From Paramagnetospirillum magnetotacticum MS-1 (GTDB lineage Bacteria > Pseudomonadota > Alphaproteobacteria > Rhodospirillales > Magnetospirillaceae), in assembly GCF_000829825.1 (NCBI RefSeq), contig NZ_JXSL01000030.1, positions 1,061,501 through 1,125,500 on the forward strand: DNA of 64,000 bases, in the 5' to 3' direction. The position numbers and the translations under genes are program-made. The first letter of the stretch is position 1, and each line of letters opens with the position of its first letter. The notes under the pieces are model-generated. The model saw nothing but the letters and a program-made list of their open reading frames with translations, was not told the origin of the DNA and did not search any database. Positions 11,944 through 29,824 of this stretch are shown here, piece after piece.

Positions 11944-12060
11944 GCGGGGGCGACTCTCTTGGGCAATCGGGGCAAGTTGGGCAGAATAAACCGCAACAGG
12001 CGCTGGGTCTTGCGATATGGGGCCGTCCTGACTCTTGTCAATCTACTGGGAGGAGGCGCC

Positions 12061-13745: not shown

Positions 13746-14278
13746 TCCGCCTGTTCGTGGGGATCGGGTTCGACGAGGAACTGAGCGCGCGTATGGCCGC
13801 CTTGCAGCGGGGCCTGCCGGGTGCGCGTTGGGTCGATCCCGCCGATCTGCATCTGACGCTGCGCTTCATCGGCGAGGTGGCCGAGGATCTGGCCGAGGAA
13901 ATTCACCTGGGACTCGCCGCCCTGGCCGAACCGCCCTTCGCCTTGACTCTGAGCGGGCTGGGCCTGTTCGGCGACCGCCATCGGGCCCACACGCTGTGGG
14001 TGGGGGTGGAGCGCTCGGACGCCCTGTCTCGCCTGGCCTCGCGTATCGAATCCGCCGTGGTTCGGGCGGGTGCCTCGCCCGAGCCGCGCAAATTCAATCC
14101 CCATGTCACCCTGGCCCGCCTGAAAGACACCCCGTCGGGACGCCTCCAGGATTTCATCGACGCCAGCGGTCCTTTCCGTGAAGAGCTGGTGGCGGTGGAG
14201 CGGTTCACCCTGTTCCGCTCGACCCTTGGCCGTCAGGGTGCCCATTACGATGCCTTGGAACATTACCCCCTGGGGTAG
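13742..14278 (+). CDS. thpR: RNA 2',3'-cyclic phosphodiesterase (LigT/ThpR)
   Basis: 178 residues starting at a GTG that overlaps the FIST stop by 4 bp. Two HxTx motifs, HLTL (37-40) and HVTL (121-124), are the catalytic tetrapeptides of the 2H phosphoesterase superfamily, and the opening MIRLFVGIGFDEEL and ARWVDPADLHLTLRFIGE are typical for ThpR. It opens 2',3'-cyclic phosphate ends of RNA. Third gene of the tesA-FIST-thpR operon. Confidence 0.93.
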   Translation: MIRLFVGIGFDEELSARMAALQRGLPGARWVDPADLHLTLRFIGEVAEDLAEEIHLGLAALAEPPFALTLSGLGLFGDRHRAHTLWVGVERSDALSRLASRIESAVVRAGASPEPRKFNPHVTLARLKDTPSGRLQDFIDASGPFREELVAVERFTLFRSTLGRQGAHYDALEHYPLG

Positions 14279-14355
14279 GCCCACATCTTGGGTCGAAGTG
14301 GCAAAACGCAAACATTCCCTTGTTCAAGGCCAGTCTTCACAGTATTTTCAAAGCC

Positions 14356-14880
14356 ATGATCGGATCGCCTTTCCGCATTGCGCTGTGCCTTGCCGTCGCT
14401 CTCGGGGCGGCGGCCTGTACGCGCGGCACGCAATTGCCGCCCTCCTCGGCGGCCAATGCCAATGGCGAGCAGCCCGCCAATTTTCAGCTGGTCACCGATA
14501 TTCCCATTCCCTCGGGCGCCACCATGGATAACGAGCGCTCGCTGATCCTGTCGGACCGCGACCGATGGACCGGTCGGGTGGTGATGACGCTGTACAATTC
14601 CGCCAATGAAGTCACCGCCTTCTACCAGCAGCAGATGCCCAATTTCGGCTGGCAGCCCATGATGAGCGTCACCGCCGAGACCAGCGTGCTGACCTATGTG
14701 CGCGGCGACCGTGCCGCAACCGTGCAGGTGGAACGGCGCACCGTTTACGGTTCCCTGGTTTCGGTCACGGTGGCGCCCAAGCAATCGGATGGCGGCGGAA
14801 GCTTTGAATCTGCCCCGGCACCGCGCTCGGCGCCTTCAAGCTCGATCCGTTCGGAACAACTGCCTCCGCCCAAGCGCTGA
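14356..14880 (+). CDS. Predicted outer-membrane or periplasmic lipoprotein, unknown function
   Basis: 174 residues from the ATG at 14356 (a TTG at 14320 would lengthen the n-region by 12). A lipoprotein signal is clear: FRIALCLAVALGAAAC with the lipobox LGAAAC ending in Cys21. The mature part has a compact domain (ITDIPIPSGATMDNERSLIL-like strand, RVVMTLYNSANEVTAFYQQQMPNFGWQPM, then AATVQVERR) of about 110 residues that resembles small lipoproteins of Rhodospirillales with no assigned role, and a disordered Ser/Pro-rich tail. A bidirectional terminator follows. Confidence 0.75.
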   Translation: MIGSPFRIALCLAVALGAAACTRGTQLPPSSAANANGEQPANFQLVTDIPIPSGATMDNERSLILSDRDRWTGRVVMTLYNSANEVTAFYQQQMPNFGWQPMMSVTAETSVLTYVRGDRAATVQVERRTVYGSLVSVTVAPKQSDGGGSFESAPAPRSAPSSSIRSEQLPPPKR

Positions 14881-14891
14881 GACGGCGCAGC

Positions 14892-14917
14892 AAAAAAGCC
14901 CCCAAAGGGGGGCTTTT
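14892..14917. terminator. Bidirectional intrinsic terminator
   Basis: AAAAAAGCCCCC, loop AAA, GGGGGGCTTTT. The A-run on one side and T-run on the other let it serve the lipoprotein gene (plus) and the small minus-strand gene ending at 14943. Confidence 0.9.
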
Positions 14918-14942
14918 CGCAATCGGCCAAGATGTGCCAGCC

Positions 14943-15182
14943 TTATAAGAGGCGTCCGCGCACCTCGGCGATCAAGGTTGTCAGGGATTCGAGGGCCACG
15001 CCGTCGCGATCCATCAGGCGATGGATGATGGGGTCGGCCATGACTTCGTCCAAGGTCGGTTCCGCGCAGCCTTCGTAATAGGCGATGGCAAGGGCGGAGC
15101 GACCGCCGGGCGCGGGGCCAAGACGGCGCACGCCACGGAACTCGGCCGGTTGCGGGGTGGATCTGTACGCGCCTGACAGCAT
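14943..15182 (-). CDS. Small conserved-looking hypothetical protein
   Basis: 79 residues. The C-terminal half, TLDEVMADPIIHRLMDRDG followed by VALESLTTLIAEVRGRLL, has the look of a conserved helical module: a DEVMxDP-hhhxLMxRDG pattern and an amphipathic end. The N-terminal half is basic and Pro/Gly-rich. I do not recognise a family with a known role. The start at 15182 is the only ATG; the gene ends beside a bidirectional terminator and is divergent from the EamA permease across an AT-rich gap. Confidence 0.55.
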   Translation of the reverse strand: MLSGAYRSTPQPAEFRGVRRLGPAPGGRSALAIAYYEGCAEPTLDEVMADPIIHRLMDRDGVALESLTTLIAEVRGRLL

Positions 15183-15361
15183 GGCAGCCCCCTATTTCCG
15201 GATTTCAACACAAGACGGACTATACAGTAGTTGCCGAAGAATTTACAGAGTCACTTTGGTATCAATTATTTTACTTTTATGTAAACGATCGCAGTGCGGC
15301 AAGTATTGCTGCGGCGCAATAACTATCTGATATGGACTGATCCAGAAGCACATCATATGGG
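15183..15361. promoter_or_regulatory. AT-rich divergent intergenic region
   Basis: Bases 15210-15300 are much richer in A+T than the neighbours (for example ATCAATTATTTTACTTTTAT). It separates two divergent genes and must hold both promoters, but I cannot choose hexamers with confidence. Confidence 0.4.
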
Positions 15362-16285
15362 ATGGCGCGCTCGGGTTATCAAGAAGGTGCGGTCACGGTG
15401 TCATCGGATTTTAACAGTCCCGGCCTTGCGCGCTCCCATCACGGGGCCGGTATCGCCGCCATGCTGGCCGCCACCTCGCTGTTTGCCGGCATGGATGCGA
15501 TGGCCAAGCTGCTGATGGCCGAGTATTCGGTTATTCAGGTGCTGTTTTTCCGGGCCGGATTCGGCTTGATTGCGCTGATACCCCTTTTGTGGCGCGGCGG
15601 CATGGGCGTCATCGTCACCGCCCGGCCCTGGGCGCATGTGGCGCGGTCGGGCATCGCCCTGGTGGCGGTCAGCTGCTTCTTTCTGGCCATTCACCGTTTG
15701 CCCCTGGCCCAGGTCACCGCCATCGGCTTTGCCGCGCCGTTGCTGATCACCGCGCTTTCGGTTCCGCTTCTGAAGGAGCGCGTCGCCCTCGGCCACTGGC
15801 TGGCGGTGGCGGTGGGATTTGGCGGTATTCTCATTGTGGCCGGTCCCGATGCCTGGAGCGGAGATCTGCTGGGGGCCGGGGCGGCGCTGGCCTTGGCCGG
15901 GACCTTTCTCTACGCCCTGGCCATGGTGCTGATGCGCGATATGGGGCGCACCGAGGCGGCGGTAACCACGGTATTCTGGTTCTCCATCCTGACCATTGTG
16001 CTGACGGGGGCGGCGCTTCCCCTGGTGTGGCGGGCGCCCGACGCCCAGGCCTGGGGCCTGTTCGCCGCAGCCGGAATCCTGGGCGGCGTGGCCCAACTGC
16101 TGATGGCCCGTGCCGTGCGTCTGGCCCCGGCCTCGGTGGTGGCGCCCTTCGACTATTTCCACATCATCATGTCGGCCAGCCTGGGCTGGTTGCTTTTCGC
16201 TGAGATTCCAAGCCTCAACACCCTGACCGGCGCCCTGGTGGTCGTGGGGTCCGGGCTTTACGTGCTCAGACGCGGCGGGAAATAG
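15362..16285 (+). CDS. EamA/DMT family transporter
   Basis: 307 residues with about ten hydrophobic segments in two five-helix EamA repeats (about 30-155 and 165-300). Typical landmarks are AMLAATSLFAGMDAMAKLL at the start of repeat one, LPLAQVTAIGFAAPLLITALSV with the nearby ERVALGHW loop, and FDYFHIIMSASLGWLLFAEIPS in repeat two. Members export or import small metabolites (amino acids, nucleotides, S-adenosylmethionine); the substrate cannot be inferred. The ATG at 15362 lacks a ribosome site. A GTG at 15398 lies 10 bases after AAGAAGG and may be the real start, which would remove 12 residues and no domain. Confidence 0.88.
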   Translation: MARSGYQEGAVTVSSDFNSPGLARSHHGAGIAAMLAATSLFAGMDAMAKLLMAEYSVIQVLFFRAGFGLIALIPLLWRGGMGVIVTARPWAHVARSGIALVAVSCFFLAIHRLPLAQVTAIGFAAPLLITALSVPLLKERVALGHWLAVAVGFGGILIVAGPDAWSGDLLGAGAALALAGTFLYALAMVLMRDMGRTEAAVTTVFWFSILTIVLTGAALPLVWRAPDAQAWGLFAAAGILGGVAQLLMARAVRLAPASVVAPFDYFHIIMSASLGWLLFAEIPSLNTLTGALVVVGSGLYVLRRGGK

Positions 16286-16372
16286 ACACAATCTCCTTGG
16301 CCCACCGGCCTGGCCCGCGTATGCTCTGGCTGAGACACAACGAAGTCGCATAATCTTTTGTCGGAGGGAGTA

Positions 16373-17143
16373 GTGCCAAAGCCCTTTTCCGCCATGGTGA
16401 TCGCCTGTGCCCTGGGATGTCTTCCCACGGGGGCCGGGGCCCATTTCCAGGAGCTGATTCCGTCTTCCGACATCGTGGCAGAGCAGGGCTCCCGCGACAT
16501 CCGCCTGGACCTGGCCTTCACCCACCCCATGGAGATGGGGCCGGTGATGGAGATGGCGCTGCCGGTGCGGTTCGGCGTCTTGAGCGGCGGCAAGGCCCGC
16601 GATCTAAAAGCGGATCTCAAGCCCGCCAAGCGGGATGGCAAGACGGTATTCGGGGCCGAGTTCCGTTTCGAACAGCCCGGTGATCATGTCTTCTATGTGG
16701 AGCCCGCACCCTATTGGGAAAAGGCGGAGGGCAAGTGGATCATCCATTACGCCAAGGTGGTGGTGGATTTCGCGGGCGGCGGCGGCTGGGACAAGCTGGT
16801 CGGGCTGCCGGTGGAGATCGAGCCCCTGGTCCGGCCCTATGGCCTGTGGACCGGCAATTTGTTCCGGGGAATCGTGCGCAGGAACGGCAAGCCCGTTCCC
16901 TTCGCTGAAATCGAGGTGGAGTGGCGCAATGACGGTTCGGTCAAGGCCCCGTCCGATCCCTTCATCACGCAGGTGATCAAGGCCGATGCCTCGGGCCAGT
17001 TCGCCTATGGCCTGCCGCGCGCCGGATGGTGGGGCTTCGCGGCCCTGGTGGAAAGCGAGAAACCGGCCAAGAGCCCAGAGGGCAAGCCCGCCAAGACCGA
17101 ACTGGGCGGCCTGATCTGGGTGCGCGCCCAGGATATGAAGTAG
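16373..17143 (+). CDS. nikK: Periplasmic DUF4198 nickel-uptake component NikK-like
   Basis: 256 residues from a GTG with GGAGG five bases before. Signal peptide FSAMVIACALGCLPTGAGA, then a mature protein beginning HFQELIPSSD. It belongs to DUF4198 (FTHPMEMGPVMEMALP, EPAPYWEKAEGKWIIHYAKV, a C-terminal beta domain with GKPVPFAEIEVEW and GFAALVES). Proteins of this type, called NikK, accompany nickel ECF importers in Proteobacteria and are thought to present Ni2+ in the periplasm. The exposed His at the mature N-terminus is compatible with metal binding. First gene of nikKMLQO; the next starts 16 bases on. Confidence 0.82.
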   Translation: MPKPFSAMVIACALGCLPTGAGAHFQELIPSSDIVAEQGSRDIRLDLAFTHPMEMGPVMEMALPVRFGVLSGGKARDLKADLKPAKRDGKTVFGAEFRFEQPGDHVFYVEPAPYWEKAEGKWIIHYAKVVVDFAGGGGWDKLVGLPVEIEPLVRPYGLWTGNLFRGIVRRNGKPVPFAEIEVEWRNDGSVKAPSDPFITQVIKADASGQFAYGLPRAGWWGFAALVESEKPAKSPEGKPAKTELGGLIWVRAQDMK

Positions 17144-17158
17144 GGGAGAAACCAACAC

Positions 17159-17758
17159 TTGGCCCATATTCCCGATGGCGTGTTGTCCGGTCCGGTGCTG
17201 GTGGCGGGGGGAATCCTTGCCGCGGTCGGGGTGGCGCGCGGGCTGAAGGAATTGGAGCCGGAGCGGATTCCCAAGGTGGCCATGCTCTCGGCGGTGATGT
17301 TCGTGGCCTCGCTGATCCATCTGCCCGCCGGTCCGGCCTCGGTGCATCTGCTGCTCAACGGTATGGCTGGGATCATGCTGGGCTGGGCCGCCTTTCCCGC
17401 CCTGCTGGCCGCCTTGCTGTTGCAGGCGGTGCTGTTCGGGTTCGGCGGCTTGCTGGTGCTGGGCGTCAACACGGTTAACATGGCGGCGCCCGCCGTCCTG
17501 GCCGGGCTGATCTTCCGCCGCTTGGCCAAGGATGCGTCGACGCGCCGAATCGCCATGATCGCCGCCCTATGCTCGGGCGGGGCCGTGCTGCTGACGGGCG
17601 TGATGGTGGCGGGGTCCCTGGCGGCTTCGGGTCGCGAATTCGAGGCCGCGGCGCGGCTGGTGGTGTTGTCCCATCTGCCGGTGATGGGGATCGAGGCGGT
17701 CTTTGCCTCCGCCGCCATCGGCCTCTTGGCGCGGGTCAAGCCGGAGGCGCTGGCATGA
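17159..17758 (+). CDS. nikM: ECF nickel transporter substrate-binding membrane subunit (NikM/CbiM family)
   Basis: 199 residues, six or seven hydrophobic segments, N-terminus AHIPDGVLSGPVL matching the CbiM/NikM metal-binding N-terminus HIPDG. The usual second-position His follows Met directly; here an Ala lies between (TTG start, then GCC CAT). If the initiator Met is removed, which an Ala at position 2 favours, the mature chain starts Ala-His and the metal ligand is back at position 2. Other ligands, HLPAGPASVHLLLNG (His pair near 59-67) and the NTVNM segment, are in place. It binds Ni2+ (Co2+ in CbiM) and hands it across with NikQ and NikO. A weak GGGGAG site precedes the TTG. Confidence 0.88.
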   Translation: MAHIPDGVLSGPVLVAGGILAAVGVARGLKELEPERIPKVAMLSAVMFVASLIHLPAGPASVHLLLNGMAGIMLGWAAFPALLAALLLQAVLFGFGGLLVLGVNTVNMAAPAVLAGLIFRRLAKDASTRRIAMIAALCSGGAVLLTGVMVAGSLAASGREFEAAARLVVLSHLPVMGIEAVFASAAIGLLARVKPEALA

Positions 17759-18273
17759 GAAGACTGGCCGCCATTCTCGTTCTGCTGCTTTGGGCCGCGC
17801 CCTCCCAGGCCCACAAGCTGAAGCTCTTCGCCTCGGTGGAAGGAAACGACATCGTCGGCTCGGCCTATTTCGTCGGCGGTGATAAGGCCGCCGGTGTTCC
17901 CGGCCGCATCGAGGGTGCCGACGGATCGCCGCCGCTGGCCTTTACCACCGGACCCGACGGCGGCTTTCGCCTGGGCGTGATGGCGCGCATGGATCACACC
18001 ATCTCGGTGGAATCCGAGGACGGCCATGCCGCCCGGTTCATCATCCGCGCCGAGGACTTGCCGCCCTCCCTGCCCGAGGGCAAGCTGATGGCCGCGCTGC
18101 CCGAGACGTCCCAGATTGAAGCGGCCATCGCTCGGCAGATCCGTCCCTTGCGCGAGCAGTTGGACGCTTATGAATCGCGGACCCGCCTGCATGACGTGAT
18201 GGGCGGAATCGGCATGATTTTCGGCCTGTTCGGCTGCTGGGCCTGGCTGCAATCGCGGCGGAGGGGATCATGA
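17755..18273 (+). CDS. nikL: NikL-like auxiliary subunit of the nickel ECF importer
   Basis: 172 residues, ATG overlapping the nikM stop (ATGA). Signal peptide RRLAAILVLLLWAAPSQA, mature start HKLKLFASVEGNDIVGSAYFVGGD, then a small periplasmic beta domain, an amphipathic helix (EAAIARQIRPLREQLDAYES) and a single C-terminal membrane span (GGIGMIFGLFGCWAWLQS). This layout, with a His right after cleavage and a C-terminal anchor, is that of NikL, which replaces NikN in some nickel-type ECF systems. Confidence 0.82.
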   Translation: MRRLAAILVLLLWAAPSQAHKLKLFASVEGNDIVGSAYFVGGDKAAGVPGRIEGADGSPPLAFTTGPDGGFRLGVMARMDHTISVESEDGHAARFIIRAEDLPPSLPEGKLMAALPETSQIEAAIARQIRPLREQLDAYESRTRLHDVMGGIGMIFGLFGCWAWLQSRRRGS

Positions 18274-19001
18274 GCCTGATGGAACGCCTCGATCCCCGCA
18301 CCCGTCTGGTGGCGGCCCTGCTCTTCGCCTTGGCAGAGGTTCTGGTGCCTTCCCTGGCGGCCCAATGCGCCGGATTGGGGCTGGCCGTGACCGCCGCCCT
18401 GGCGGCGCGCCTGCCTTTGGGCGCCACCCTGCGCCGTCTGCTCGGCCTGGAAGGCTTCATGGCCGTGGCGCTGGTTATGCTGCCTTTCACGGTGCCGGGC
18501 CAGCCGCTATTCAGCCTGTGGGGGCTGGACGCGTCGCAAGAGGGGCTGCTCCGTGCCGCCGGGATCGCCATCAAGGCCAATGCCGTGGCGGTGGCGCTGT
18601 TCGCCCTTCTGGGCGCCATGGAGATGCCGGTCCTGGGCCGCGCGCTTGGCCGTCTGGGAGTGAGCGGGCGTTTCGTCCATCTGTTCTTGTTCACCACCCG
18701 CTATTTGTCGGTGATGGAGGAGGAATACCGCCGTCTGCGCCTTGCCATGCGGGCCAGGGCCTTTCGCCCGCGCACGGGCCTGCATTGCTGGCGCTCCATC
18801 GGCTATCTGTTCGGCATGCTGATGGTGCGGTCCCTTGAGCGGGCCGAGCGTATCGATGCCGCCATGCGGTGCCGAGGATTCACGGGCCGCTTTCCCACCC
18901 TGGAGGACGATGTCGAGGCGGGGCCGGGCCGTGTGGATCTGGGCTTCGGTGCGGCATCGGCGGTTGGGCTGGCCCTGGTCATCGCCGTGGGGATGGTGTG
19001 A
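18270..19001 (+). CDS. nikQ: ECF transporter coupling subunit (NikQ/CbiQ family)
   Basis: 243 residues, ATG overlapping the nikL stop. Opening SLMERLDPRTRLVAALLFAL is the CbiQ signature, several membrane helices follow, and the cytosolic coupling helices carry LRLAMRARAF and AAMRCRGFTGRF, the two A-x-R-G-like motifs that dock the ATPase. It transmits ATP-driven movement to NikM. Confidence 0.9.
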   Translation: MSLMERLDPRTRLVAALLFALAEVLVPSLAAQCAGLGLAVTAALAARLPLGATLRRLLGLEGFMAVALVMLPFTVPGQPLFSLWGLDASQEGLLRAAGIAIKANAVAVALFALLGAMEMPVLGRALGRLGVSGRFVHLFLFTTRYLSVMEEEYRRLRLAMRARAFRPRTGLHCWRSIGYLFGMLMVRSLERAERIDAAMRCRGFTGRFPTLEDDVEAGPGRVDLGFGAASAVGLALVIAVGMV

Positions 19002-19642
19002 CGCTGATCCGTCTCGAAACTGTTTCGCATGCCTTCGACGCAGCCCATCCGGTGCTGGACGGCGTGGATTTCTCCCTGGATTCCGGGGAGAGGGTGGCTT
19101 TGCTGGGCGCCAATGGCAGCGGCAAGACCACGCTTTTGCATGTCATGGTCGGTCTGATCCGGCCCCAATCCGGGCGGGTTCATGCCTTTGGGCGCGAACG
19201 CCGCGCCGAATCCGATTTCGTCGAGGTCCGCGCCAAGGCCGGGCTGTTGTTCCAAGATGCCGACGACCAGTTGTTCTGCCCCACCGTGGCCGAGGACGTG
19301 GCCTTCGGTCCGCTCAATCTGGGCAAGAGCAAGGCCGAGGCGCGCCATATCGTCCATGCGGTACTCGACCAGCTGGGCCTTGCGGCCCTGGAGAACCGGG
19401 TCACCCACAAATTGTCGGGTGGGCAAAAGCGTCTGGTTTCCCTGGCCGCCGTGCTGGCCATGGAGCCCGAGGCCTTGCTGCTGGACGAGCCGACCAATGC
19501 TTTGGACGAGGCGACGCGGGCAAGGCTGCTCGACATCCTGGCCGGGCTGCCCCAGGCCATGGTCATCGTCTCCCACGACCGCGAGGTGATCGAGCATCTG
19601 GCCACGCGGCGGGTGAGCCTGGAGCGTGGGATTCTAACCTGA
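18998..19642 (+). CDS. nikO: ECF transporter ATPase (NikO/CbiO family)
   Basis: 214 residues from a GTG overlapping the nikQ stop. Walker A LGANGSGKTT (37-45), Q-loop LLFQDADDQLFCPTVAEDVAFGP (the DDQLF form is typical of CbiO), signature LSGGQKRLVSLA, Walker B ALLLDEPTNALD and switch His in IVSHDRE are intact. It is somewhat shorter than many CbiO proteins, lacking a C-terminal extension. The last 9 bases overlap the end of the convergent orphan gene at 19634. Confidence 0.92.
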   Translation: MTLIRLETVSHAFDAAHPVLDGVDFSLDSGERVALLGANGSGKTTLLHVMVGLIRPQSGRVHAFGRERRAESDFVEVRAKAGLLFQDADDQLFCPTVAEDVAFGPLNLGKSKAEARHIVHAVLDQLGLAALENRVTHKLSGGQKRLVSLAAVLAMEPEALLLDEPTNALDEATRARLLDILAGLPQAMVIVSHDREVIEHLATRRVSLERGILT

Positions 19643-20830
19643 AATGGAAACCGGCTTGGAGGTCGGGCCCAGAGCGTCCAACGCCTTCTTCAGGCGGGGC
19701 TGCGAGTCGAGGCGCGCCGCTCCGGCCTCGACGCCGCCCACATAGGCGGTGGACAGCAAGGCGGAATAGACCCGCTTCATGTCATCCAGGCAAGGGGGCG
19801 GCGTTTCCGCGTTGGTCAGGCGGTCGGCCAGCTTGCGGGCGGCGTGGACCTGGCCGCTCTGGCAGAAATCCTGTTTGAAGCGCTGTTCGCCCAAAGTGGT
19901 GAAGGCGATCATCAGGAAGGCGGTGAAGCGGCGGATATCGCCGCCCAGCACCGGCAGCAGCGCGCGGATCACGTCCACATGGGTGGCCGCCACCTGAGAA
20001 ACGGCGCGGCGAACCTGGGACGTTTCAGATTTGGGGAACAGACGGGCCAGATCCATCTGCTGGACCACCCGCCACAGCATCTCGGGCTCCACCTCATCCT
20101 TGCCAGCCACCAGCAGGCGTCTGGCGTCGTCGAGCAGCAGCGGCACCCGCCCATCGCGCGGGATGTTGCCTGGCGCGCTCAGCGCCTGCAACTCGGCGGC
20201 CTCGCGGATATCGAGCAGGCGCGAGCCCAGATCGCTGACTACCGAGGGGCTCATGGGCGTGTAATGGGGGATCAGCATCACCTGCCAATCAAAGCGCAGA
20301 TAATCGCGGATGACCTGGTACAGGGCTTCGGACCGGGCGTGGGGCTTGGCCGCGGGCTTTTTCGGCGGCGGCGGATGGGCCAGCCCCAGGGCGACGGCCA
20401 TGCGATTCATGACCGATTGCTTGGGCGGCGGAATCTGGAACCTGGCGCGGAAGTCCAGCTTGGCGCGGAAATAGCGGCGCGCCGAGGCCCGCACCACCAA
20501 GGCCACCGCCTCGGCCAGGGTGCGGCCGCAGGCCAGGACGTCCTTATCCTGGGTGATGGGCCGCTTTTGGGCGTCGGTGACCACATGGGCGAACAGTTCG
20601 GGGCGGGTTCTGAACAGGCGCAGGCACTCGTCCAGCATCTTGGGATCGTTCATGGCCTTGTCATAGGCGGCGTTGCGCGGCAGTCCCTTGAGCGCCAGGA
20701 CTTCATTGCGCAGAACGCCGATGACCGGTCCTTCCAGCGCGGCCCGAATGGCCTCGATGCCAGGATCGGCATTGGACCACTGCGTACTGGGGCTGGAATT
20801 CCCTTTGCTCGTCTCTTTGCGCCCAGACAT
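19634..20830 (-). CDS. Orphan mostly helical protein, function unknown
   Basis: 398 residues from the ATG at 20830 (GTG at 20839 also possible). I do not recognise a family. The chain is predicted soluble and mostly helical, with a Pro-rich spacer (HPPPPKKPAAKP, about residues 153-165) that separates an N-terminal part (LRNEVLALKGLPRNAAYDKA, RARFQIPPPKQSVMNRM) from a C-terminal part (YLRFDWQVMLIPHYTPMSPSVVSDLGSRLL, MLWRVVQQMDLARLFP, RALLPVLGGDIRRFTAFLMIAFTTLGEQRF). There is no signal peptide or membrane span. Codon use is like the neighbours, so it is not obviously recent. It is convergent with nikO and divergent from the His-rich gene. Confidence 0.6.
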   Translation of the reverse strand: MSGRKETSKGNSSPSTQWSNADPGIEAIRAALEGPVIGVLRNEVLALKGLPRNAAYDKAMNDPKMLDECLRLFRTRPELFAHVVTDAQKRPITQDKDVLACGRTLAEAVALVVRASARRYFRAKLDFRARFQIPPPKQSVMNRMAVALGLAHPPPPKKPAAKPHARSEALYQVIRDYLRFDWQVMLIPHYTPMSPSVVSDLGSRLLDIREAAELQALSAPGNIPRDGRVPLLLDDARRLLVAGKDEVEPEMLWRVVQQMDLARLFPKSETSQVRRAVSQVAATHVDVIRALLPVLGGDIRRFTAFLMIAFTTLGEQRFKQDFCQSGQVHAARKLADRLTNAETPPPCLDDMKRVYSALLSTAYVGGVEAGAARLDSQPRLKKALDALGPTSKPVSISG

Positions 20831-20839
20831 ATCGTTCAC

Positions 20840-21089
20840 ATCTCAAGTCAATACATTCACATTCGGTTCACGCTACGCTCATAATCATGCAATTTCAACC
20901 AACTTAATTGGATGATAATTAATATCCCTTAGGTATGTTGGGCGATAATTTTATGAATACATGACACAAAGTTTGAATAAAATTTTATCTAATTTTATTA
21001 TTTATGCTTCCTATAATTTCCCGTCCGCCGTTCCGATTCTCAGCGCGACGGAGTAGAATGGGGGCTCGTCACAGCAGCGGGAGAGGCAG
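20840..21089. other. AT-rich intergenic island
   Basis: About 250 bases, very A+T-rich between 20875 and 21020 while both flanks are GC-rich. It contains an inverted repeat TTAATT / AATTAA (20904-20909 and 20917-20922) and the probable promoter of the His-rich gene. It may be a site for nucleoid proteins or a trace of foreign DNA. Confidence 0.6.
20973..21001 (+). promoter_or_regulatory. Candidate sigma-70 promoter of the His-rich gene
   Basis: TTGAAT (20973-20978), 17-base spacer, TATTAT (20996-21001). The expected start near 21008 leaves a leader of about 80 nt before the ATG at 21090. A second -10-like TATAAT occurs at 21012-21017 without a good -35. Confidence 0.5.
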
Positions 21090-21380
21090 ATGCACGGCGG
21101 CCATCATCACGACGACGACCGCGGGCATGAGCACAAACATCAGCATGCCCACGAACACAGTCACGTTCATGCTCATCCCCATTCCCACGCGGACGTGACC
21201 CATAGCCATGCGCACGCCCATAGCCATGCGCATGAACACCTGCACCAGCACTCCCATCCCCATGGGCATGAGGTTGACGGTAGCCACGGCCACGATCACG
21301 AGCCTGCCAAGCACGCCTGGAAGCCGCACGAGCACAAGCACGCCGATGACGAGCTCGGCGGTCATGATCACGAGCATTGA
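21090..21380 (+). CDS. Histidine-rich putative metal-binding protein
   Basis: 96 residues, 37 of them His by my count, mostly as alternating H-x pairs (for example EHKHQHAHEHSHVHAHPHSH from residue 14), plus Asp and Glu, no Cys, one Trp, and no signal peptide or membrane span. The start has a strong GGGAGAGG ribosome site seven bases before the ATG, so it is expressed. The composition is that of a Ni2+, Zn2+, Co2+ or Cu2+ buffer, comparable in principle to Hpn of Helicobacter, but I cannot align it with a named family. The nickel ECF importer ends about 1.4 kb upstream, which makes nickel storage the first guess. An AT-rich promoter island precedes it. Confidence 0.75.
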   Translation: MHGGHHHDDDRGHEHKHQHAHEHSHVHAHPHSHADVTHSHAHAHSHAHEHLHQHSHPHGHEVDGSHGHDHEPAKHAWKPHEHKHADDELGGHDHEH

Positions 21381-21392
21381 TGGGGTTTGGAC

Positions 21393-22250
21393 TTAGTCCT
21401 CGTTTTCCAACGAGGCGACGTAGCGCAACCCGTCCAGCGCGGTGTCGAACCAGTCTTCGCGGGTTTCGTCCTCGGCATGGACCAGATAGGCCGGGCGGCG
21501 GAATTCCGGCGCTCCGGTCACTTCGAACAGGCGGCCCGCCGACAGATAGGAACGCACCACCCGCATGGGGAAATAGCCGGTGCCGCCATAGGCCAGGACA
21601 TGCTGCAGCCCCAAGGCCCCCAGCCCCACCTGGACGGCAGGCGTTTTCATATCGGGAAAGGCTTGGCTGTGGGCGGCGCGGAATTCCGGACCCCAATCCA
21701 CGAGCACATAATCCTCGTCCCAATCCGATACGGCGCGGCGCCGGGTCGAGACCAGGACCAAGCGCTCTTCCAGCAGCTTTTCGATATGCAGGCCGGGCCG
21801 CGACAGGGGCGAATACATGACGCCCAGATCGAGCATACCCTCGATCAACTGGCGCATCAGCTGATCCGAGCTTCCCACCTCGGCCTTCAGCGCCACGTCG
21901 GGCATGGCGGTACGCATCCACGGAATCCACTGGACCAGCAGGCGGTCCCACAAGGAGAACTGGCCGCCCACATTCAGCACGGTGCGAAAGCCCGCGGGCA
22001 GTGCCAGTTCCTGGCGCGCCTGTTCCCAGACCCGGACCATGGTGGTGGCGTAGCGGCGAAACTGCATGCCAGCGGCGGTCAACTGGGTGCCCGACTTGGA
22101 ACGCACGAACAAAGGCCGCCCCAATTCGTCTTCCAGCGCCTTGATGCGCATGCTGACCGTCGACTGGGTCACCGAGAGGCGTTCGGCGGCCTTGTTGAAG
22201 TTGCCGGTGTCGACGATTTCCAGGAAGGTGCGGGCGAGATCGATATTCAT
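21393..22250 (-). CDS. LysR family transcriptional regulator
   Basis: 285 residues. The winged helix-turn-helix is at 2-60 (FLEIVDTGNFNKAAERLSV, then TQSTVSMRIKALEDELGRPLF), followed by a periplasmic-binding-like effector domain (VGGQFSLWDRLLVQWIP, MLDLGVMYSPLSRPGL, GTGYFPMRVV). The inducer is unknown. It lies convergent to the His-rich gene, 12 bases apart, so it does not obviously control it. A perfect 12-bp palindrome lies about 110 bases upstream of its start. Confidence 0.92.
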   Translation of the reverse strand: MNIDLARTFLEIVDTGNFNKAAERLSVTQSTVSMRIKALEDELGRPLFVRSKSGTQLTAAGMQFRRYATTMVRVWEQARQELALPAGFRTVLNVGGQFSLWDRLLVQWIPWMRTAMPDVALKAEVGSSDQLMRQLIEGMLDLGVMYSPLSRPGLHIEKLLEERLVLVSTRRRAVSDWDEDYVLVDWGPEFRAAHSQAFPDMKTPAVQVGLGALGLQHVLAYGGTGYFPMRVVRSYLSAGRLFEVTGAPEFRRPAYLVHAEDETREDWFDTALDGLRYVASLENED

Positions 22251-22361
22251 AGTGCGGCCGGAACGAGGGCAGCACGATGCTGCACTGCAATAGATGGCAG
22301 CGTTTTATCTGAACCGCGCGAGAAGTTCAACTAGCTCGCGGTCTGTAATCGGAAAGTTTGA

Positions 22362-22390
22362 TGCATGGGTGGGGATCGCCCACCCATGCA
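22362..22390. repeat. Perfect 12-bp palindrome between hpf and the LysR gene
   Basis: TGCATGGGTGGG (22362-22373), five-base loop, CCCACCCATGCA (22379-22390). It begins 13 bases after the hpf stop on the minus strand, so it could end the hpf mRNA, but there is no T-run. It also lies upstream of the LysR gene and could be an operator. Confidence 0.65.
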
Positions 22391-22402
22391 GGCAGGAATG
22401 GC

Positions 22403-22765
22403 TTAGGCGTTCGCCCGAGCCTTGACGTTACCGCGGCTGCGGTCGACATATTCCTTCAACTGGCGCTCCATGCCGGCAAACGCCTCGCGCAGCGCCACAT
22501 AGATATCCTCATTGACATGGCTGTCCTTGGGATCGCGCTTCACCACCAGTTCGTCACCGGGGACCGTCAGGGCGAGACGGATATGGAAGGGCTCGCCCTT
22601 GTGGTGCAGGTTCGAGGTGTTCTTGTGGTGCTGCTCGATCACCACGCGGCAGCTGGTGATGCGATCGAAGAGATGCTCCAGTTTGGCCACCTTTTCGCGG
22701 ATGCGGGTTTCGACAGCATCGGAATGATCGACACCGTGAAAGGTGATCTGGAGGGGAATCTGCAT
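22403..22765 (-). CDS. hpf: Ribosome hibernation promoting factor (short form)
   Basis: 120 residues from the ATG at 22765, which has GGAG six bases upstream; an ATG four codons earlier is a worse choice. It has the S30AE fold (IPLQITFHGVDHSDAVETRIREKVAKLEHLF, CRVVIEQHHKN, FHIRLALTVPGDELVVKRDPKDSHVNEDIYVALREAFAGMERQL). With no long C-terminal dimerisation domain it is a short HPF/YfiA type, which binds the 30S subunit in stationary phase. Alphaproteobacteria more often carry the long form, often beside rpoN; that context is not present here. Confidence 0.9.
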   Translation of the reverse strand: MQIPLQITFHGVDHSDAVETRIREKVAKLEHLFDRITSCRVVIEQHHKNTSNLHHKGEPFHIRLALTVPGDELVVKRDPKDSHVNEDIYVALREAFAGMERQLKEYVDRSRGNVKARANA

Positions 22766-22860
22766 CAACGTCTCCATTCTCTCGGTTCGCCCTTGCCGGG
22801 CTTTATGGGCGGCGGCCGGGCGACTCGGTTCCTTTATAAATCCCGCCGTCTGGGCGGGAC

Positions 22861-22888
22861 CTTGAAGCTCGGGGCGCCATACATAGCC
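22861..22888 (+). promoter_or_regulatory. Candidate heat-shock promoter of htpG
   Basis: CTTGAAG (22861-22867) followed 17 bases after CTTG by CATAG (22882-22886), close to the alphaproteobacterial sigma-32 pattern (CTTG, 17-18 bases, CYTAT). The distance to the htpG start is about 140 bases. The match is partial. Confidence 0.3.
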
Positions 22889-23025
22889 ATTTACAATGGC
22901 CTTGGCAACGTCCGGAGCGAACCTTCATTGTCTCGGAGAATCGCGGCACTTGCAAGCTGGCGCAGCTCCCCTCATATCAGAGCGCCCATTCATGCAACCC
23001 CTCACTTCCGGGAGATGGAACCGTC

Positions 23026-24897
23026 ATGGCCGAAGAAAAGCGTCAATTCCAGGCAGAAGTCGGCAAGCTGCTCGACATCGTTGTTCACTCGCTCTACTCC
23101 AACAAGGAGATTTTCCTGCGCGAGCTGATCTCCAACGCCTCGGATTCATGCGATCGGCTGCGCTATGCCGCCATCACCGAGCCCGATCTGATGGCCGGAG
23201 ACTCCGAATTCCGCATCCGCCTGATCCCCAATAAGGACGCGGGCACGCTCACCATCGTCGATAACGGCCTTGGCATGAGCCACGATGAGCTGATCGCCAA
23301 TCTGGGCACCATCGCCAAGTCGGGCACGTCGGAATTCCTGTCGCGCCTGACCGGCGACGCCAAGAAGGATGTCAGCCTGATCGGCCAGTTCGGCGTCGGC
23401 TTCTATTCCGCCTTCATGGTCGCCGAGGAGGTCACCGTCATCTCGCGCAAGGCTGGCGAGGCCAAGGGCTGGAAATGGGTGTCCGACGGCAAGGGCGAAT
23501 TCACCGTCTCGCCCGCCGACGACGCGCCGCGCGGCGCTTCGCTGACCCTCAAGCTGCGCGACGGCGAGACGGAGTTCCTCGACGCCTTCCGCCTCAAATC
23601 CATCGTCAAACGCTACTCCGACCACATCGCCATTCCGGTGAGCCTGAAGGACGGCGAAAAGGTCGAGGAGACCATCAACGCGGCCAGCGCGCTCTGGACG
23701 CGCTCCAAATCTGAGATCACCCCGGAGCAGTACAAGGAATTCTACCACCACGTCGCCCATGCCTTCGACGAGCCGTGGAGCACCCTGCACTACAAGGCCG
23801 AAGGCGCCATCGAATATACCGGCCTGTTGTTCATCCCGTCGTCCAAGCCCATGGACATCTTCCACCCTGACCGCAAGCAGCATGTGAAGCTTTATGTGCG
23901 CCGCGTCTTCATCACCGATGATTGCGAGGAATTGCTGCCCCCTTACCTACGTTTCGTCCGTGGCGTGGTGGACAGCCAGGACCTGCCCCTGAACGTCAGC
24001 CGCGAGATGCTGCAGCACAATCCCGTCCTGTCCAAGATCCGCAGCGGTCTGGTCAAGCGCATCCTGGGCGAGCTGAAGAAGAAGTCCGAGGATGCGGACG
24101 GCAAGTATGACGAGTTCTGGGCCGCCTTCGGCCCGGTGCTGAAGGAAGGCATCTACGAGGATTTCGAGCGCAAGACCGATATCCTGGAACTGTGCCGCTT
24201 CCGCTCCACCCATGGCGAGGGCCTGACCACGCTCGCCGATTACGTGGCCCGCATGAAGGAAGGCCAGGACGCCATCTACACCATCACCGGCGACGATCTC
24301 GAGCAGTTGAAGAAGAGCCCGCAGCTGGAAGGCTTCAAGGCCAAGGGCGTCGAGGTGCTGCTGCTTACCGATCCCATCGACGAGTTCTGGGTCTCGGCGG
24401 TGCACGCCTATGCCGAGAAGGAGTTCCGCTCGGTGGCCGCCGCGGGCGCCGATCTCTCCAAGGTCAAGGCGCCCGAGGGCGCGGAGGACAAGAAGGAAGA
24501 CGAAGCCCCCGCCGACGAACTCACCACCTTGATCGAGGCGGTCAAGCTGGCCCTGGGCGAACGCATCAAGGATGTGCGGGCGTCTGAACGCCTGACCGAA
24601 TCCGCCGTCTGCCTGGTGGCCGCCGAAGGCGAGATGAGCATGCATCTGGAAAAGATGCTGCGCGCCCACAACCAGTCGCCGGGCGAACGTCCCCGCATCC
24701 TGGAAATCAACCCCCGCCACGCCCTGATCAAGGGCCTCGCCGCCCGCGTCAAGACCGGCGGCACCGATTCCGGCCTGGAAGACGCCGCCTTCCTGCTGCT
24801 CGATCAGGCCCGCATCATCGAAGGTGAACCCCCCGCCGACCCGGCCGCCTTCGCCCGGCGCATGGTGTCGGTCATGGAAAAAGGGTTGCTGGGGTAA
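23026..24897 (+). CDS. htpG: Chaperone protein HtpG (Hsp90)
   Basis: 623 residues, full length. The GHKL ATPase domain shows LRELISNASDSCDRLRYAAI (Asn/Asp for ATP and Mg), IVDNGLGMSHDEL, GTIAKSGTSEFL and GQFGVGFYSAFMVA; the middle domain shows GLLFIPSSKPMDIF, VKLYVRRVFITDDCEELLP and PLNVSREMLQHNPVL with the catalytic-loop Arg; the C-terminal dimer domain ends MVSVMEKGLLG. It assists late folding and stress recovery in the cytosol. A GGGAGATGG site precedes the ATG. It is convergent with the diguanylate cyclase. Confidence 0.97.
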   Translation: MAEEKRQFQAEVGKLLDIVVHSLYSNKEIFLRELISNASDSCDRLRYAAITEPDLMAGDSEFRIRLIPNKDAGTLTIVDNGLGMSHDELIANLGTIAKSGTSEFLSRLTGDAKKDVSLIGQFGVGFYSAFMVAEEVTVISRKAGEAKGWKWVSDGKGEFTVSPADDAPRGASLTLKLRDGETEFLDAFRLKSIVKRYSDHIAIPVSLKDGEKVEETINAASALWTRSKSEITPEQYKEFYHHVAHAFDEPWSTLHYKAEGAIEYTGLLFIPSSKPMDIFHPDRKQHVKLYVRRVFITDDCEELLPPYLRFVRGVVDSQDLPLNVSREMLQHNPVLSKIRSGLVKRILGELKKKSEDADGKYDEFWAAFGPVLKEGIYEDFERKTDILELCRFRSTHGEGLTTLADYVARMKEGQDAIYTITGDDLEQLKKSPQLEGFKAKGVEVLLLTDPIDEFWVSAVHAYAEKEFRSVAAAGADLSKVKAPEGAEDKKEDEAPADELTTLIEAVKLALGERIKDVRASERLTESAVCLVAAEGEMSMHLEKMLRAHNQSPGERPRILEINPRHALIKGLAARVKTGGTDSGLEDAAFLLLDQARIIEGEPPADPAAFARRMVSVMEKGLLG

Positions 24898-24911
24898 AGT
24901 GAAGGAAAAGT

Positions 24912-24933
24912 GCGAAGGGACTCGTCCCTTCGC
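24912..24933 (-). terminator. Stem-loop between htpG and the diguanylate cyclase gene
   Basis: GCGAAGGGAC and GTCCCTTCGC pair perfectly over 10 bp. On the minus strand it begins 7 bases after the cyclase stop and is followed by CACTTTTCC, giving a short T-run; on the plus strand it is T-poor but could still end htpG mRNA. Confidence 0.6.
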
Positions 24934-24939
24934 GCATCC

Positions 24940-26007
24940 CTATTCCTCCGCCACCACCCGATTCCGGCCCGCGTGTTTGGCGCGGTAGAGGGCCTGATCG
25001 GCGCGTTCCAGCAGGGTGTCGATGGTCAGATCGCCTTCGCGCAATTGGGCGACGCCGATGCTGACGGTGAGCTCGAACAGTTCGCCCTTGGCGGGGCGGA
25101 CCACCAGTTCCGCGACGGCGGCGCGCAGGCGTTCGGCGATGACGCGGGCGCCGTCGGGGCCGGTATTGGGCAGGGCCACGGCGAATTCCTCGCCGCCGAT
25201 GCGGCCCAGGATGTCGTATTCGCGCAAGGATAGACGGCAGGCATTGGCGAAGGCCTTAAGGGCCTCGTCGCCTGCGGCATGGCCCCAGGTGTCGTTGATG
25301 CGCTTGAAATGATCGATATCGAGCGCCAGCAGGGCGAAGGAGCGGCCCATGCGCCTGGCATGGTCCAGTTCCAGCCCGGCCAGATGCTCGAAATGGCGGC
25401 GATTGGCGGTTTGGGTCAGAGAGTCGCGGCTGGCCAGTTCCTCCAGCTCGGCCATATGGCGGCTGGTATCGCAGAAGGCGCCCAGCGACAGGGCCAGATC
25501 CTCGATACCGCCATCGGGCGCCAGCACCACGGGCACCCGGTCGATGACCAGACGCAGCAGCGCCTCGGGCCCTTGGGCGGGTGGCGGAGAGTCCACTGGA
25601 TAGGCTCCCACCACCAGGCGGCCATCTTTGGCGGGCAGGACCAGACGCTGCCAGGTCTGGGGCAGGTCCTGGCCGAACAGGGCGGTGTAGGAGCGCCACA
25701 GGGGGCGGTTGGTGCGGCGCACGAAGCCGTATTCGAATTCCAGCATGAAACGCCGGTCGGCGGGCAGGATATGGGCGGGCAGCAGGTCGATGACCTCGCC
25801 CGTCAGGTCCTGGCCGAAGCAAGCGGCGAAGGCCCGGCCATAATGGGCATAGCGGTTGGCGCCGTCTTCGGCCTCGATAACCAGCAGATGATCGGCATGG
25901 GGAGCGAAACGCAGGGCTGGATCGCCGCCCGCCGTCTCGTGCTTGCGCCACAGAGCCAGCAGGTCGGACAGCCGGGAATCCATCACTTTCGCAACCAGAT
26001 CACGCAT
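24940..26007 (-). CDS. PAS-like sensor diguanylate cyclase
   Basis: 355 residues. The N-terminal 170 residues form a PAS_5-like sensor region (LSDLLALWRKHETAGGDPALR, HADHLLVIEAEDGANRYAHYGRAFAACFGQDLTG, HILPADRRFMLEFEYGFVRRTNRPLWR); this resembles the sensor modules found widely in Rhodospirillales. A linker leads to a complete GGDEF domain with RDSLTQTANRRHFE, LALDIDHFKRINDTWGHAAGDEAL and the active-site RIGGEEFAVAL. The inhibitory RxxD site is RLSLREYD at a shifted position, so product inhibition is uncertain. It should make c-di-GMP, opposite to the EAL protein at 4330. GAGG precedes the ATG. Confidence 0.92.
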   Translation of the reverse strand: MRDLVAKVMDSRLSDLLALWRKHETAGGDPALRFAPHADHLLVIEAEDGANRYAHYGRAFAACFGQDLTGEVIDLLPAHILPADRRFMLEFEYGFVRRTNRPLWRSYTALFGQDLPQTWQRLVLPAKDGRLVVGAYPVDSPPPAQGPEALLRLVIDRVPVVLAPDGGIEDLALSLGAFCDTSRHMAELEELASRDSLTQTANRRHFEHLAGLELDHARRMGRSFALLALDIDHFKRINDTWGHAAGDEALKAFANACRLSLREYDILGRIGGEEFAVALPNTGPDGARVIAERLRAAVAELVVRPAKGELFELTVSIGVAQLREGDLTIDTLLERADQALYRAKHAGRNRVVAEE

Positions 26008-26142
26008 GGAACCTCACACTTGCCACGCCCTACTGGTACCACAGGAACGGGCTTCGGACCAGTTTCAGCCATCCATGGATCATTGGCCGGAAACTGCGTA
26101 TCGTGTGCTCCCGTGTCCCTGGATGGGTAGGAGGTCCCCGTC

Positions 26143-27090
26143 TTGACCCGCGTCAACGCGACGGATGATCCCAAGAGTCAGGTTGGGTCCATGTCCGGCC
26201 TGCCCCGAACCCTGTTTCTCGCCACCCGGCCCATGTTCCTGCCCGCTGCTCTGATTCCGGTGGTGGTGGGAAGCGCATGGGGCGTGCACCGCGCCCATTC
26301 CCTCGATCCTGCGGCCCTGGCCCTGGCGGCGATGGCCATGGCCTGTCTGCATGCGGGCGCCAATGTGATCAACGACGTGGGCGACGAGCTGAATGGCGCC
26401 GACCGCCTCAATCACGACCGCATCGCCCCCTTCACCGGCGGCTCTCGCTTTATTCAGGACGGCAGTCTCGGCCTTAAGGCCATGGCGGTCTGGGGTGTGG
26501 TGCTGCTGCTGGCGGCGGGCGGGCTGGGCGGCGTTCTCAGCCTGACCAAGGGCCAGGGAGTCCTGGCCTTCGGGCTGGTGGGCTGCACCCTGGCCCTGGC
26601 TTATTCCCTTCCGCCGTTCAGCCTGGCATCGCGCGGACTGGGCGAGGTGGCGGTGGCGCTGGGCTTCGGCCTGCCGGTAGCCGCCTGTGTCTGGCTGCAA
26701 AGCGGCGGAATCGGGTTGGAGGCGCTGCTGTGTTCGGCCATCACCGGCGGCTGGACCGCCGCCATCCTGATCGTCAACGAGGTGCCCGATCTGGCCGCCG
26801 ACGCCCAGGCGGGCAAGCGCACTCTGGTGGTGCGCTTGGGGATCAAGGGAGCGCCCTCGCTCTATCTCTCTGTCCAGGCGGTGGCTTCGGCCCTGATGCT
26901 GGCGCTGGGCTGGCTGGCGCAGTTGCCGCCCTGGGTGGTGGTGCCGCCCTTGCTGGCCATGCTGGCCGCCCTGGCCGCCACCTTGCTGATGGCGGGCGGA
27001 CGGGCGGGCCAGTTGGCCGCCATCCGCATCACGCTGGGGATTCACCTGCTGGGGGGACTGAGCCTGGCGGGGGCGGCGTTCCTGGGATAG
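26143..27090 (+). CDS. UbiA family prenyltransferase (MenA-like)
   Basis: 315 residues, eight or nine membrane helices. The two aspartate-rich motifs of the family are present: NVINDVGDELNGADR for prenyl diphosphate/Mg2+ and NEVPDLAADAQAGKRTLVVRLG. The LALAYSLPPFSLASRGLGEVAVALGFG stretch is typical of MenA-type enzymes that prenylate 1,4-dihydroxy-2-naphthoate, but no other menaquinone gene is here, and related proteins act in other quinone or lipid pathways. The start is a TTG with GGAGG nine bases before; an ATG at 26191 would also begin before the first helix. It is divergent from the cyclase gene and followed by repeats. Confidence 0.85.
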   Translation: MTRVNATDDPKSQVGSMSGLPRTLFLATRPMFLPAALIPVVVGSAWGVHRAHSLDPAALALAAMAMACLHAGANVINDVGDELNGADRLNHDRIAPFTGGSRFIQDGSLGLKAMAVWGVVLLLAAGGLGGVLSLTKGQGVLAFGLVGCTLALAYSLPPFSLASRGLGEVAVALGFGLPVAACVWLQSGGIGLEALLCSAITGGWTAAILIVNEVPDLAADAQAGKRTLVVRLGIKGAPSLYLSVQAVASALMLALGWLAQLPPWVVVPPLLAMLAALAATLLMAGGRAGQLAAIRITLGIHLLGGLSLAGAAFLG

Positions 27091-27205
27091 GCGGGGCTTT
27101 CGCCCCGGGCCCCAATCGGGAGGCCCGGCCTCCCGAACCCACCCGTTATTTATGAATCAAAAGGGGGTCCGGGGCATTCGCCCCGGATAGGTTTGGGCGA
27201 TAGCC
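27091..27205. repeat. Hairpin-rich intergenic repeat element
   Basis: Stem GGGGCTTTCGCCCC, then the palindrome CGGGAGGCCCGGCCTCCCG and a right-hand stem CCGGGGCATTCGCCCCGG separated by an AT segment (TTATTTATGAATCAAAAGG). It fills the space between the convergent UbiA and ychF genes. The modular build suggests a dispersed extragenic palindromic element that can also end transcripts. Confidence 0.6.
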
Positions 27206-27224
27206 CTATATCCGCAATCCCGAA

Positions 27225-28328
27225 TTACACGTTGAACAGGAAGTGGAAGATATCGCCGTCATTGACGACGTATTCCTTGCCCTCCAGGCGCATCTTGCCC
27301 GCTTCCTTGGCGCCCGCTTCGCCGTTACAGGCGATGAAGTCGTCATAGGCGATGGTCTCGGCGCGGATGAAGCCGCGTTCGAAATCGGTGTGGATGACGC
27401 CTGCGGCCTGGGGGGCCTTGCAACCCTTCTGGAGCGTCCAGGCGCGGGCCTCCTTGGGCCCGACGGTGAAGAAGGTGATGAGGTGGAGAAGCTCGTAACC
27501 GGCGCGGATGACGCGGGCCAGGCCCGTCTCCTCCAGGCCCAGGGTTTCGAGGAATTCCTTGCGCTCGTCTTCCGAGGCTAGCTGGGCCACTTCGGATTCG
27601 ATGGCGGCCGAGATCACCACCGAGCTGTTGCCCTCGGCGGCGGCGAACTTGGCCACGGCTTCGGAGAACTTGTTGCCGGTGGCGGCGCTGGCCTCGTCCA
27701 CGTTACAGGCATAGACCACCGGCTTGACGGTCATCAGGCCCAGCGTCTTGGCGATGCGGCGCTCTTCTTCCGAGTCGAAGGTGACGGTGCGGGCGGGCTT
27801 GCCCTCACGCAATACGGCCAGCAGCGGGGCCATGACATCGACCTGGGCCTTGGCTTCCTTGTCGCCGTTCTTGGCCTTCTTTTCCAGGGGAACGATACGG
27901 CGCTCCAGGCTGTCGAGATCGGCCAGCATCAGCTCGGTCTCGATGGTCTCGGCATCCCTGACCGGATCGACGCTGCCTTCCACATGGGTGATGTCGCCGT
28001 CTTCGAAACAGCGCAGCACATGGACGATGGCGTCCACCTCGCGGATATTGGCCAGGAACTGGTTGCCCAGGCCTTCGCCCTTGGAGGCGCCGCGCACCAG
28101 ACCGGCGATATCGACGAATTCCAGTTGGGTGGGGATTTCCTTCTGGCTCTTGCCGATGACCACCAGCCGGTCCAGGCGGGGATCGGGCACCGCCACGCGG
28201 CCCACATTGGGCTCGATGGTGCAGAAGGGGTAGTTGGCCGCCTGCGCCGCCGCCGTGGAGGTCAGCGCGTTGAACAAGGTGCTCTTGCCCACATTGGGCA
28301 GGCCGACGATACCGCAATTGAAACCCAT
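27225..28328 (-). CDS. ychF: Redox-regulated ATPase YchF (Obg family)
   Basis: 367 residues. G1 GLPNVGKST (9-17), G3 [20 protein letters not shown] and the YchF-specific G4 equivalent YACNVDEA, plus the C-terminal TGS-like domain ([35 protein letters not shown], ending [11 protein letters not shown]). YchF binds ATP in preference to GTP and the ribosome, and is linked to oxidative stress. Third gene of rplY-pth-ychF, the usual order, four bases after pth. Confidence 0.97.
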
Positions 28329-28332
28329 GGAC

Positions 28333-29037
28333 TCAGTCCTTCCTGGTGATCTTGATCATGGCCGCCTTCAGCGCCTCGGCGAGGCTGCCTGCGGACGGCG
28401 GGGGGGAAACGGATGCCGGAGCGGAGGCAGGCGCCGCCTCGGCGGCGGGCTTTTCCTTTTTCGGTTTGGGCGGCGCGGTGAGATGGGCCACGCGGGTCAT
28501 GAAGCCGGTATCGTCGCCCGAGACCAGCATGGGAAATGTATCGGCCACCGCGTCGAGAACGGGGATCAACCAGGCCTCGTCCGCCTTGGCAAAGTCGTGC
28601 AGGACGTAACCCGACACCAGATCGCGGTCGCCGGGATGGCCGATGCCCATGCGGACCCGGCGGTAATTCTGCCCCAGATGGGAGTCGATGCTTTTCAGCC
28701 CGTTATGGCCGCCCGCGCCGCCGCCGCGCTTGACCTTGAGACGGCCCGGCGCGATGTCCAGCTCGTCATGTAGCACGACGATGTCATCCACCGGCACCTT
28801 GAGAAAGCGCGAAGCCGCCGCCACCGACTGGCCCGACAGATTCATATAGGTCTGGGGCTTCAAGGCGATGACCTTCCGGCCTTCGATGACTCCTTCGGCC
28901 ACTTCGCCCTGAAACTTGGCGCGCCACGGCCCAAAGGAATGGCGGCGGACGATCACGTCCGCCGCCATGAACCCGATATTGTGCCGATTCCTGGCATAGT
29001 CGGAGCCGGGATTGCCCAGTCCGACCAGCAGGATCAT
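28333..29037 (-). CDS. pth: Peptidyl-tRNA hydrolase with long C-terminal tail
   Basis: 234 residues. [20 protein letters not shown] with the catalytic His19, [38 protein letters not shown] and [10 protein letters not shown] are all canonical. It releases tRNA from peptidyl-tRNA. It is about 40 residues longer than the Escherichia coli enzyme because of a Pro/Ala/Lys-rich tail (from PPKPKKEKP, residue about 190) that ends in a short helix [13 protein letters not shown]; such tails occur in several alphaproteobacteria. The ATG directly abuts the rplY stop codon (TAA ATG). Confidence 0.96.
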
Positions 29038-29646: not shown

Positions 29647-29706
29647 TGTTCTCTCCTGACAAACGTATATGAGCGCGGCCTCCAGGGGTGCCACGCGGAA
29701 GCGGGT

Positions 29707-29735
29707 CGTTTACACCGGTTGCGCCCGGTTGGCAA
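29707..29735 (-). promoter_or_regulatory. Candidate promoter of rplY-pth-ychF
   Basis: On the minus strand TTGCCA (29735-29730), 17-base spacer, TAAACG (29712-29707), about 60 bases before the rplY ATG. The -10 is a weak match. Confidence 0.4.
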
Positions 29736-29779
29736 GGGTATCTAGACTCCTTTCGTTCCGCTGATTTAAGGTCGAGCCC

Positions 29780-29824
29780 ATGACTCTTGCCTTCCCACCC
29801 TTCGATTTCAGCCGTCCGCGATGA
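29780..29824 (+). other. Possible 14-codon leader ORF before the MFS gene
   Basis: ATG at 29780 with AAGG upstream opens 14 codons (MTLAFPPFDFSRPR) whose TGA overlaps the MFS start in ATGA. The MFS ATG itself lacks a ribosome site, so translation could be coupled to this short ORF. No attenuator hairpin is seen. Confidence 0.3.

Follow-up and report, generated by a model that had tools for sequence, protein, structure and literature searches.

A conserved histidine-rich protein encoded near nickel importers in Paramagnetospirillum magnetotacticum and its relatives is a candidate nickel buffer

Nickel-binding histidine-rich proteins are best known from Helicobacter. The alphaproteobacteria have CooJ, a small histidine-rich nickel protein with a histidine-rich tail that belongs with CODH. 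Hpn and Hpn-2 of H. pylori are small, cytosolic, extremely histidine-rich proteins tied to nickel; Hpn (7.08 kDa), whose histidines are clustered into stretches, sequesters nickel at 5 Ni per monomer (PMC4671568, from the part of the paper available to us). In cable bacteria, the membrane exporter RcnA carries a nickel-linked loop of 100 to 123 residues with 33 to 53 histidines, and the same source, in its accessible sections, names CooJ as a CODH accessory protein (PMC11247825). Nickel uptake in H. pylori has a gatekeeper in SlyD, which likewise binds metal and acts on a nickel importer (PMC7840056, in excerpt); SlyD differs in being a PPIase chaperone built of folded domains.

The protein described here is encoded in a window of 64,000 nucleotides (the whole stretch of DNA that was analyzed) from P. 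magnetotacticum MS-1, the features of which are collected in Table 1. It resembles Hpn in combining a very high histidine content with a small size, no membrane segments, and a putatively cytosolic location, but its histidines alternate with other residues along a stretch of about 50 positions. Whereas the histidine loop of RcnA is part of an exporter, this is a free protein encoded beside importers, and the tail and CODH association that describe CooJ set that protein apart as well.

Table 1. Features of the P. magnetotacticum MS-1 window, with positions counted from its first nucleotide
Feature	Position	Strand	Basis or remark
nickel-importer box AGTCGCATAAT	16344..16354	+	ahead of nikK
nikK (DUF4198)	16358..17143	+	Pfam
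nikM (CbiM family)	17159..17758	+	Pfam, NCBIfam
nikL candidate	17755..18273	+	position only; 0 families in Pfam
nikQ (CbiQ family)	18270..19001	+	Pfam, NCBIfam
nikO, ATPase of nickel ECF importer	18998..19642	+	Pfam, NCBIfam
P401, divergent 401-aa gene between nikO and His-rich gene in the window's genus	19634..20839	-	
promoter-like TTGAAT-17-TATTAT	20973..21001	+	consensus match only
palindrome ATAAAATTTTAT	20977..20988		inside spacer of promoter-like sequence
ribosome-binding site GGGAGAGG	21079..21086	+	read from sequence; 3 nt 5' of ATG
His-rich protein gene	21090..21380	+	96 aa, 37 His; ORF, homologues, alignment, dN/dS

Translation of the gene (MHGGHHHDDDRGHEHKH...HDHEH) reproduces the composition given in the first-pass annotation, 37 histidines among 96 residues (38.5%) and no cysteine. 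The histidine codons comprise 19 CAC and 18 CAT, and the richest stop-free stretch of 96 codons in the other five frames of the window holds 16 histidines. The strong ribosome site that the annotation had described was located as GGGAGAGG, and its AT-rich promoter agrees with a GC content of 30% at 20881 to 21035 (65% for the whole window) and with the promoter-like sequence, one of three such sites in 20820 to 21480, where the shuffle mean is 0.8. Its statement that no named family fits holds for Pfam and NCBIfam, neither of which has a family matching the protein at E ≤ 1; no signal peptide was seen on inspection by eye, and a literature search confined to papers readable without a subscription returned no paper naming the protein or the box described below. 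A 102-aa open reading frame lies antisense to the gene at 21069 to 21377 (−) and is probably a by-product of its CAC and CAT codons.

The homologues and the substitution pattern of the open reading frame are those of a real gene. Full-length homologues, 71 to 80% identical in the alignment, are present in 14 of the 17 genomes of the genus, the window genome included; this count leaves out weak second matches (E 0.15 to 0.94) and the matches in G002 (0.0025) and G003 (0.94). Among the eight of these 14 sequences that are identical in length, dN/dS ranges from 0.06 to 0.33 (22 of 28 pairs computable), indicating purifying selection. Strong profile matches occur in 29 of 55 genomes of the bacterial family, referred to below as carriers; a match in G035 (E 4.4e-4, residues 40 to 76), which would be the 30th, was left out. 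At the order level, 36 of 317 genomes have a match, seven of them outside the family, and a separate scan of public genomes returned eight loci, all from Paramagnetospirillum, Magnetospirillum, or Phaeospirillum. The 29 aligned proteins share 39 invariant columns and contain 35 to 40 histidines each (35 to 41%).

The first-pass annotation had linked the gene to nickel through a single association, the nikKMLQO importer ending about 1.4 kb upstream. That distance is accurate (1,447 bp from the end of nikO to the ATG), and the comparison with relatives makes the nickel link stronger. Outside the genus, a nickel importer lies beside or near the gene in all 15 carriers, and in 12 of these 15 the gene is directly 3′ of nikO on the same strand, with a gap of −8 to +35 bp. 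Association is not exclusive to NikKMLQO: in L128, a NicO permease gene (PF03824) ends 1 bp upstream; in L121, a NicO gene is about 550 bp upstream, separated from the histidine-rich gene by a hemerythrin gene on the opposite strand; and in L127 a HupE/UreJ gene (PF04955) is divergent from the histidine-rich gene and 83 bp away. Within the genus, 10 of 14 genomes have a same-strand nikO 1,436 to 1,522 bp upstream, with P401 between on the opposite strand; the stretches examined around the gene in the other four (L053, L055, L057, and L059) contain no nik genes, and nikK-nikM are located elsewhere in those genomes. The search for homologues beside metal genes in relatives was clearly positive and points to nickel, and we consider the nickel link established by this neighborhood. 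No recognized nickel gene adjoins any of the seven homologues found in the order but outside the family; for each of them, one neighbor was compared with Pfam (no family matched in two cases), and the other neighbors were judged by eye. A distant histidine-rich homologue in L223 (7504 to 7806, −) is directly 3′ of ychF; the window has a ychF about 6 kb from its own gene, and a link between the two arrangements is perhaps chance.

Because the gene, conserved in magnetic spirilla and related bacteria, is usually beside a nickel importer, its product probably holds and buffers nickel in the cell. We favor, with moderate confidence, a cytosolic Ni(II) buffer produced together with the importer as the likeliest reading, given the position beside three unrelated importers, the number of histidines, and the example set by Hpn. 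The metal buffer that the first-pass annotation had proposed thus gains from the NikKMLQO, NicO, and HupE neighbors outside the genus, while the distant homologues without nickel neighbors, together with the four genomes of the genus in which nik genes are not nearby, argue against it.

The distribution of the nickel regulator NikR (PF08753) bears on a different role. NikR is encoded in 19 of the 55 family genomes, in 0 of 29 carriers and 19 of 26 noncarriers (Fisher p = 2.3e-9, with genomes counted as independent and kinship ignored); seven genomes have neither gene. In four genomes (G002, G003, G038, and G045) the nik genes occur with NikR and the histidine-rich gene is absent, and in G003 and G038 NikR follows nikO, in the place that the histidine-rich gene takes in carriers. 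Such a pattern could be produced by a nickel-loaded import regulator that replaces NikR, senses cytosolic nickel, and either closes the importer or works through the regulator of the box. We consider this very unlikely. The four NikR-type operons form one clade (support 100) in a tree of 26 nik operons, four of them partial (G004, G005, G007, and G014), in which deeper nodes have support of 48 to 64; G002 and G003 fall in this clade despite belonging to the window's genus. The operons therefore look like a swap of one cassette for another, and the anticorrelation represents few independent events. Moreover, of seven carriers from outside the family, two (G185 and G249) do have NikR, the AlphaFold prediction has no DNA-binding fold, and H. 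pylori has NikR and Hpn together (PMC4671568, in the part available). Hpn differs in this respect from the protein studied here, the gene for which lies in importer operons and, within the family, only in genomes without NikR.

High histidine content is no proof of nickel, since the in vitro ligands of Hpn also include Zn, Cu, Co, and Bi (PMC4671568, same part). The protein might instead buffer cobalt, zinc, or copper, with its proximity to importers explained by import of cobalt, alone or mixed with nickel. Cobalt is the predicted substrate of some NikKMLQO systems (PMC2667541, in the portion accessible), the distant homologues lack nickel neighbors, and two NikR-type nik loci, those of G038 and G045, have cbi neighbors: cbiD adjoins both operons (L203 and L206), and cbiJ also adjoins that of G045 (L206), a hint that the NikR-type cassette may be linked to cobalt or B12. 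These cbiD neighbors, however, belong to loci without the histidine-rich gene. NicO, which Pfam names for high-affinity nickel transport, and HupE as neighbors also speak against another metal, as do the second CbiM locus in the window genome and an Rfam search of window positions 10000 to 30000, which found no cobalamin or NiCo riboswitch at E ≤ 1. On balance, we judge a buffer for another metal to be improbable.

AlphaFold predicts two strands, at residues 13 to 33 and 36 to 56, with a pLDDT of about 91 for residues 21 to 50 and low values elsewhere (mean, 69.4; pTM, 0.32). Ten histidine positions in residues 13 to 31 and ten in residues 38 to 56 are histidine in all 29 sequences, and the odd spacing from His33 to His38 (5, once 11) is kept in all 29; in the seven distant homologues, the turn spacing varies by eye. 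If the strands form a tight hairpin, the model suggests that the ten histidines of one strand face the ten of the other: under the assumed pairing i+j=69, all ten pairs are His-His in all 29 sequences and would lie on one face of a beta-hairpin. The predicted hairpin may be a habit of AlphaFold with alternating sequence. Comparison of the family with solved structures gave two chance-level matches only (E 0.34 and 0.43).

Beyond the predicted strands, the tail residues W77, K78, P79, and H80 are invariant in all 29 aligned proteins and could form a docking site. This feature would suit a nickel metallochaperone that, instead of storing Ni(II), carries it from the importer to the assembly of hydrogenase or urease, a role that draws on the same neighborhood evidence as the buffer and on the contacts of Hpn and Hpn-2 with HypA/HypB and urease (PMC4671568, again from the part available). 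Among the neighbors examined, however, none was recognized as a hydrogenase, urease, hyp, or ure gene, and we regard a chaperone as rather unlikely.

The importers associated with the histidine-rich gene also share an upstream element. Of the 29 carriers, 27 have GTCGCATAA ahead of a nickel importer (nikK in 25, NicO in G017, and HupE in G046); the other two are accounted for by G011 and G034, in which the sequence examined excludes the importer start. The four NikR-type operons lack the box and have GTATGA..TCGTATTAC-like sequences instead. The longer AGTCGCATAATNTT is present in 29 exact copies in 25 of the 55 family genomes, all of them carriers, compared with 0 copies of the reversed control pattern. 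These copies precede nikK (22), genes for TonB-dependent receptors (4), NicO (1), HupE (1), and in one case nothing recognized. The window genome has one exact copy of AGTCGCATAATNTT, at 16344, and no exact box was found upstream of the window's own histidine-rich gene. The box AGTCGCATAAT also occurs at L121, L127, L225, L237, L238, L244, and L252, in NikR-free genomes.

Upstream of the histidine-rich gene itself, 12 of the 14 genomes of the genus have the palindrome core TAAAATTTTA no more than 300 bp away; the core is farther upstream in L059, ahead of an inserted open reading frame, and the exact core is absent from L055. A scan of the window genome for ATAAAATTTTAT with up to three mismatches gave 15 matches, against 2 in the reversed control. 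We rejected the palindrome as the mark of a regulon, as eight inspected loci had no common theme.

P401 is the nearest upstream divergent gene to the histidine-rich gene in 13 of 14 genomes of the genus; in L059, an open reading frame of 205 aa separates the two. It belongs to a paralogous family present in 54 of the 55 family genomes, with up to 11 matches each. Its predicted model is all-helical (pLDDT, 81.8), with no Pfam match over the cutoff and no fold match in the PDB at E ≤ 0.001 (best, 1.7). P401 was rejected as a functional partner: it is not beside the histidine-rich gene in other genera, and its orthologues in G002, G003, and G008 have no adjoining histidine-rich gene. The order of nik and histidine-rich genes is probably old, with P401 having entered in the window's genus.

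Together, these observations lead us to infer the following course for the favored Ni(II) buffer. Ni(II) would be imported by NikKMLQO, or by NicO or HupE in relatives, while the histidine-rich protein would be expressed as part of the importer operon in most relatives and, in the window's genus, from a promoter of its own. Incoming Ni(II) would be caught in the cytosol on the histidine rows of the protein, which would thereby keep free Ni(II) low and later release the metal to the makers of nickel enzymes. More tentatively, and with somewhat less than even confidence, we propose that the family has two exchangeable cassettes. One would consist of nik and NikR with a GTATGA..TCGTATTAC site; the other would pair an importer (nik, NicO, or HupE) and the histidine-rich sink with the box AGTCGCATAAT, read by a nickel regulator with control over TonB receptors as well. 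The histidine-rich protein would then be a histidine-ladder hairpin that buffers NikR-free nickel homeostasis.

The shared box provides a means of tracing its regulator in laboratory strains. The protein belongs to a family named in neither Pfam nor NCBIfam. Its association with three unrelated nickel importers, and the absence of NikR from every carrier in this bacterial family, suggest that these bacteria have a different way of handling nickel.
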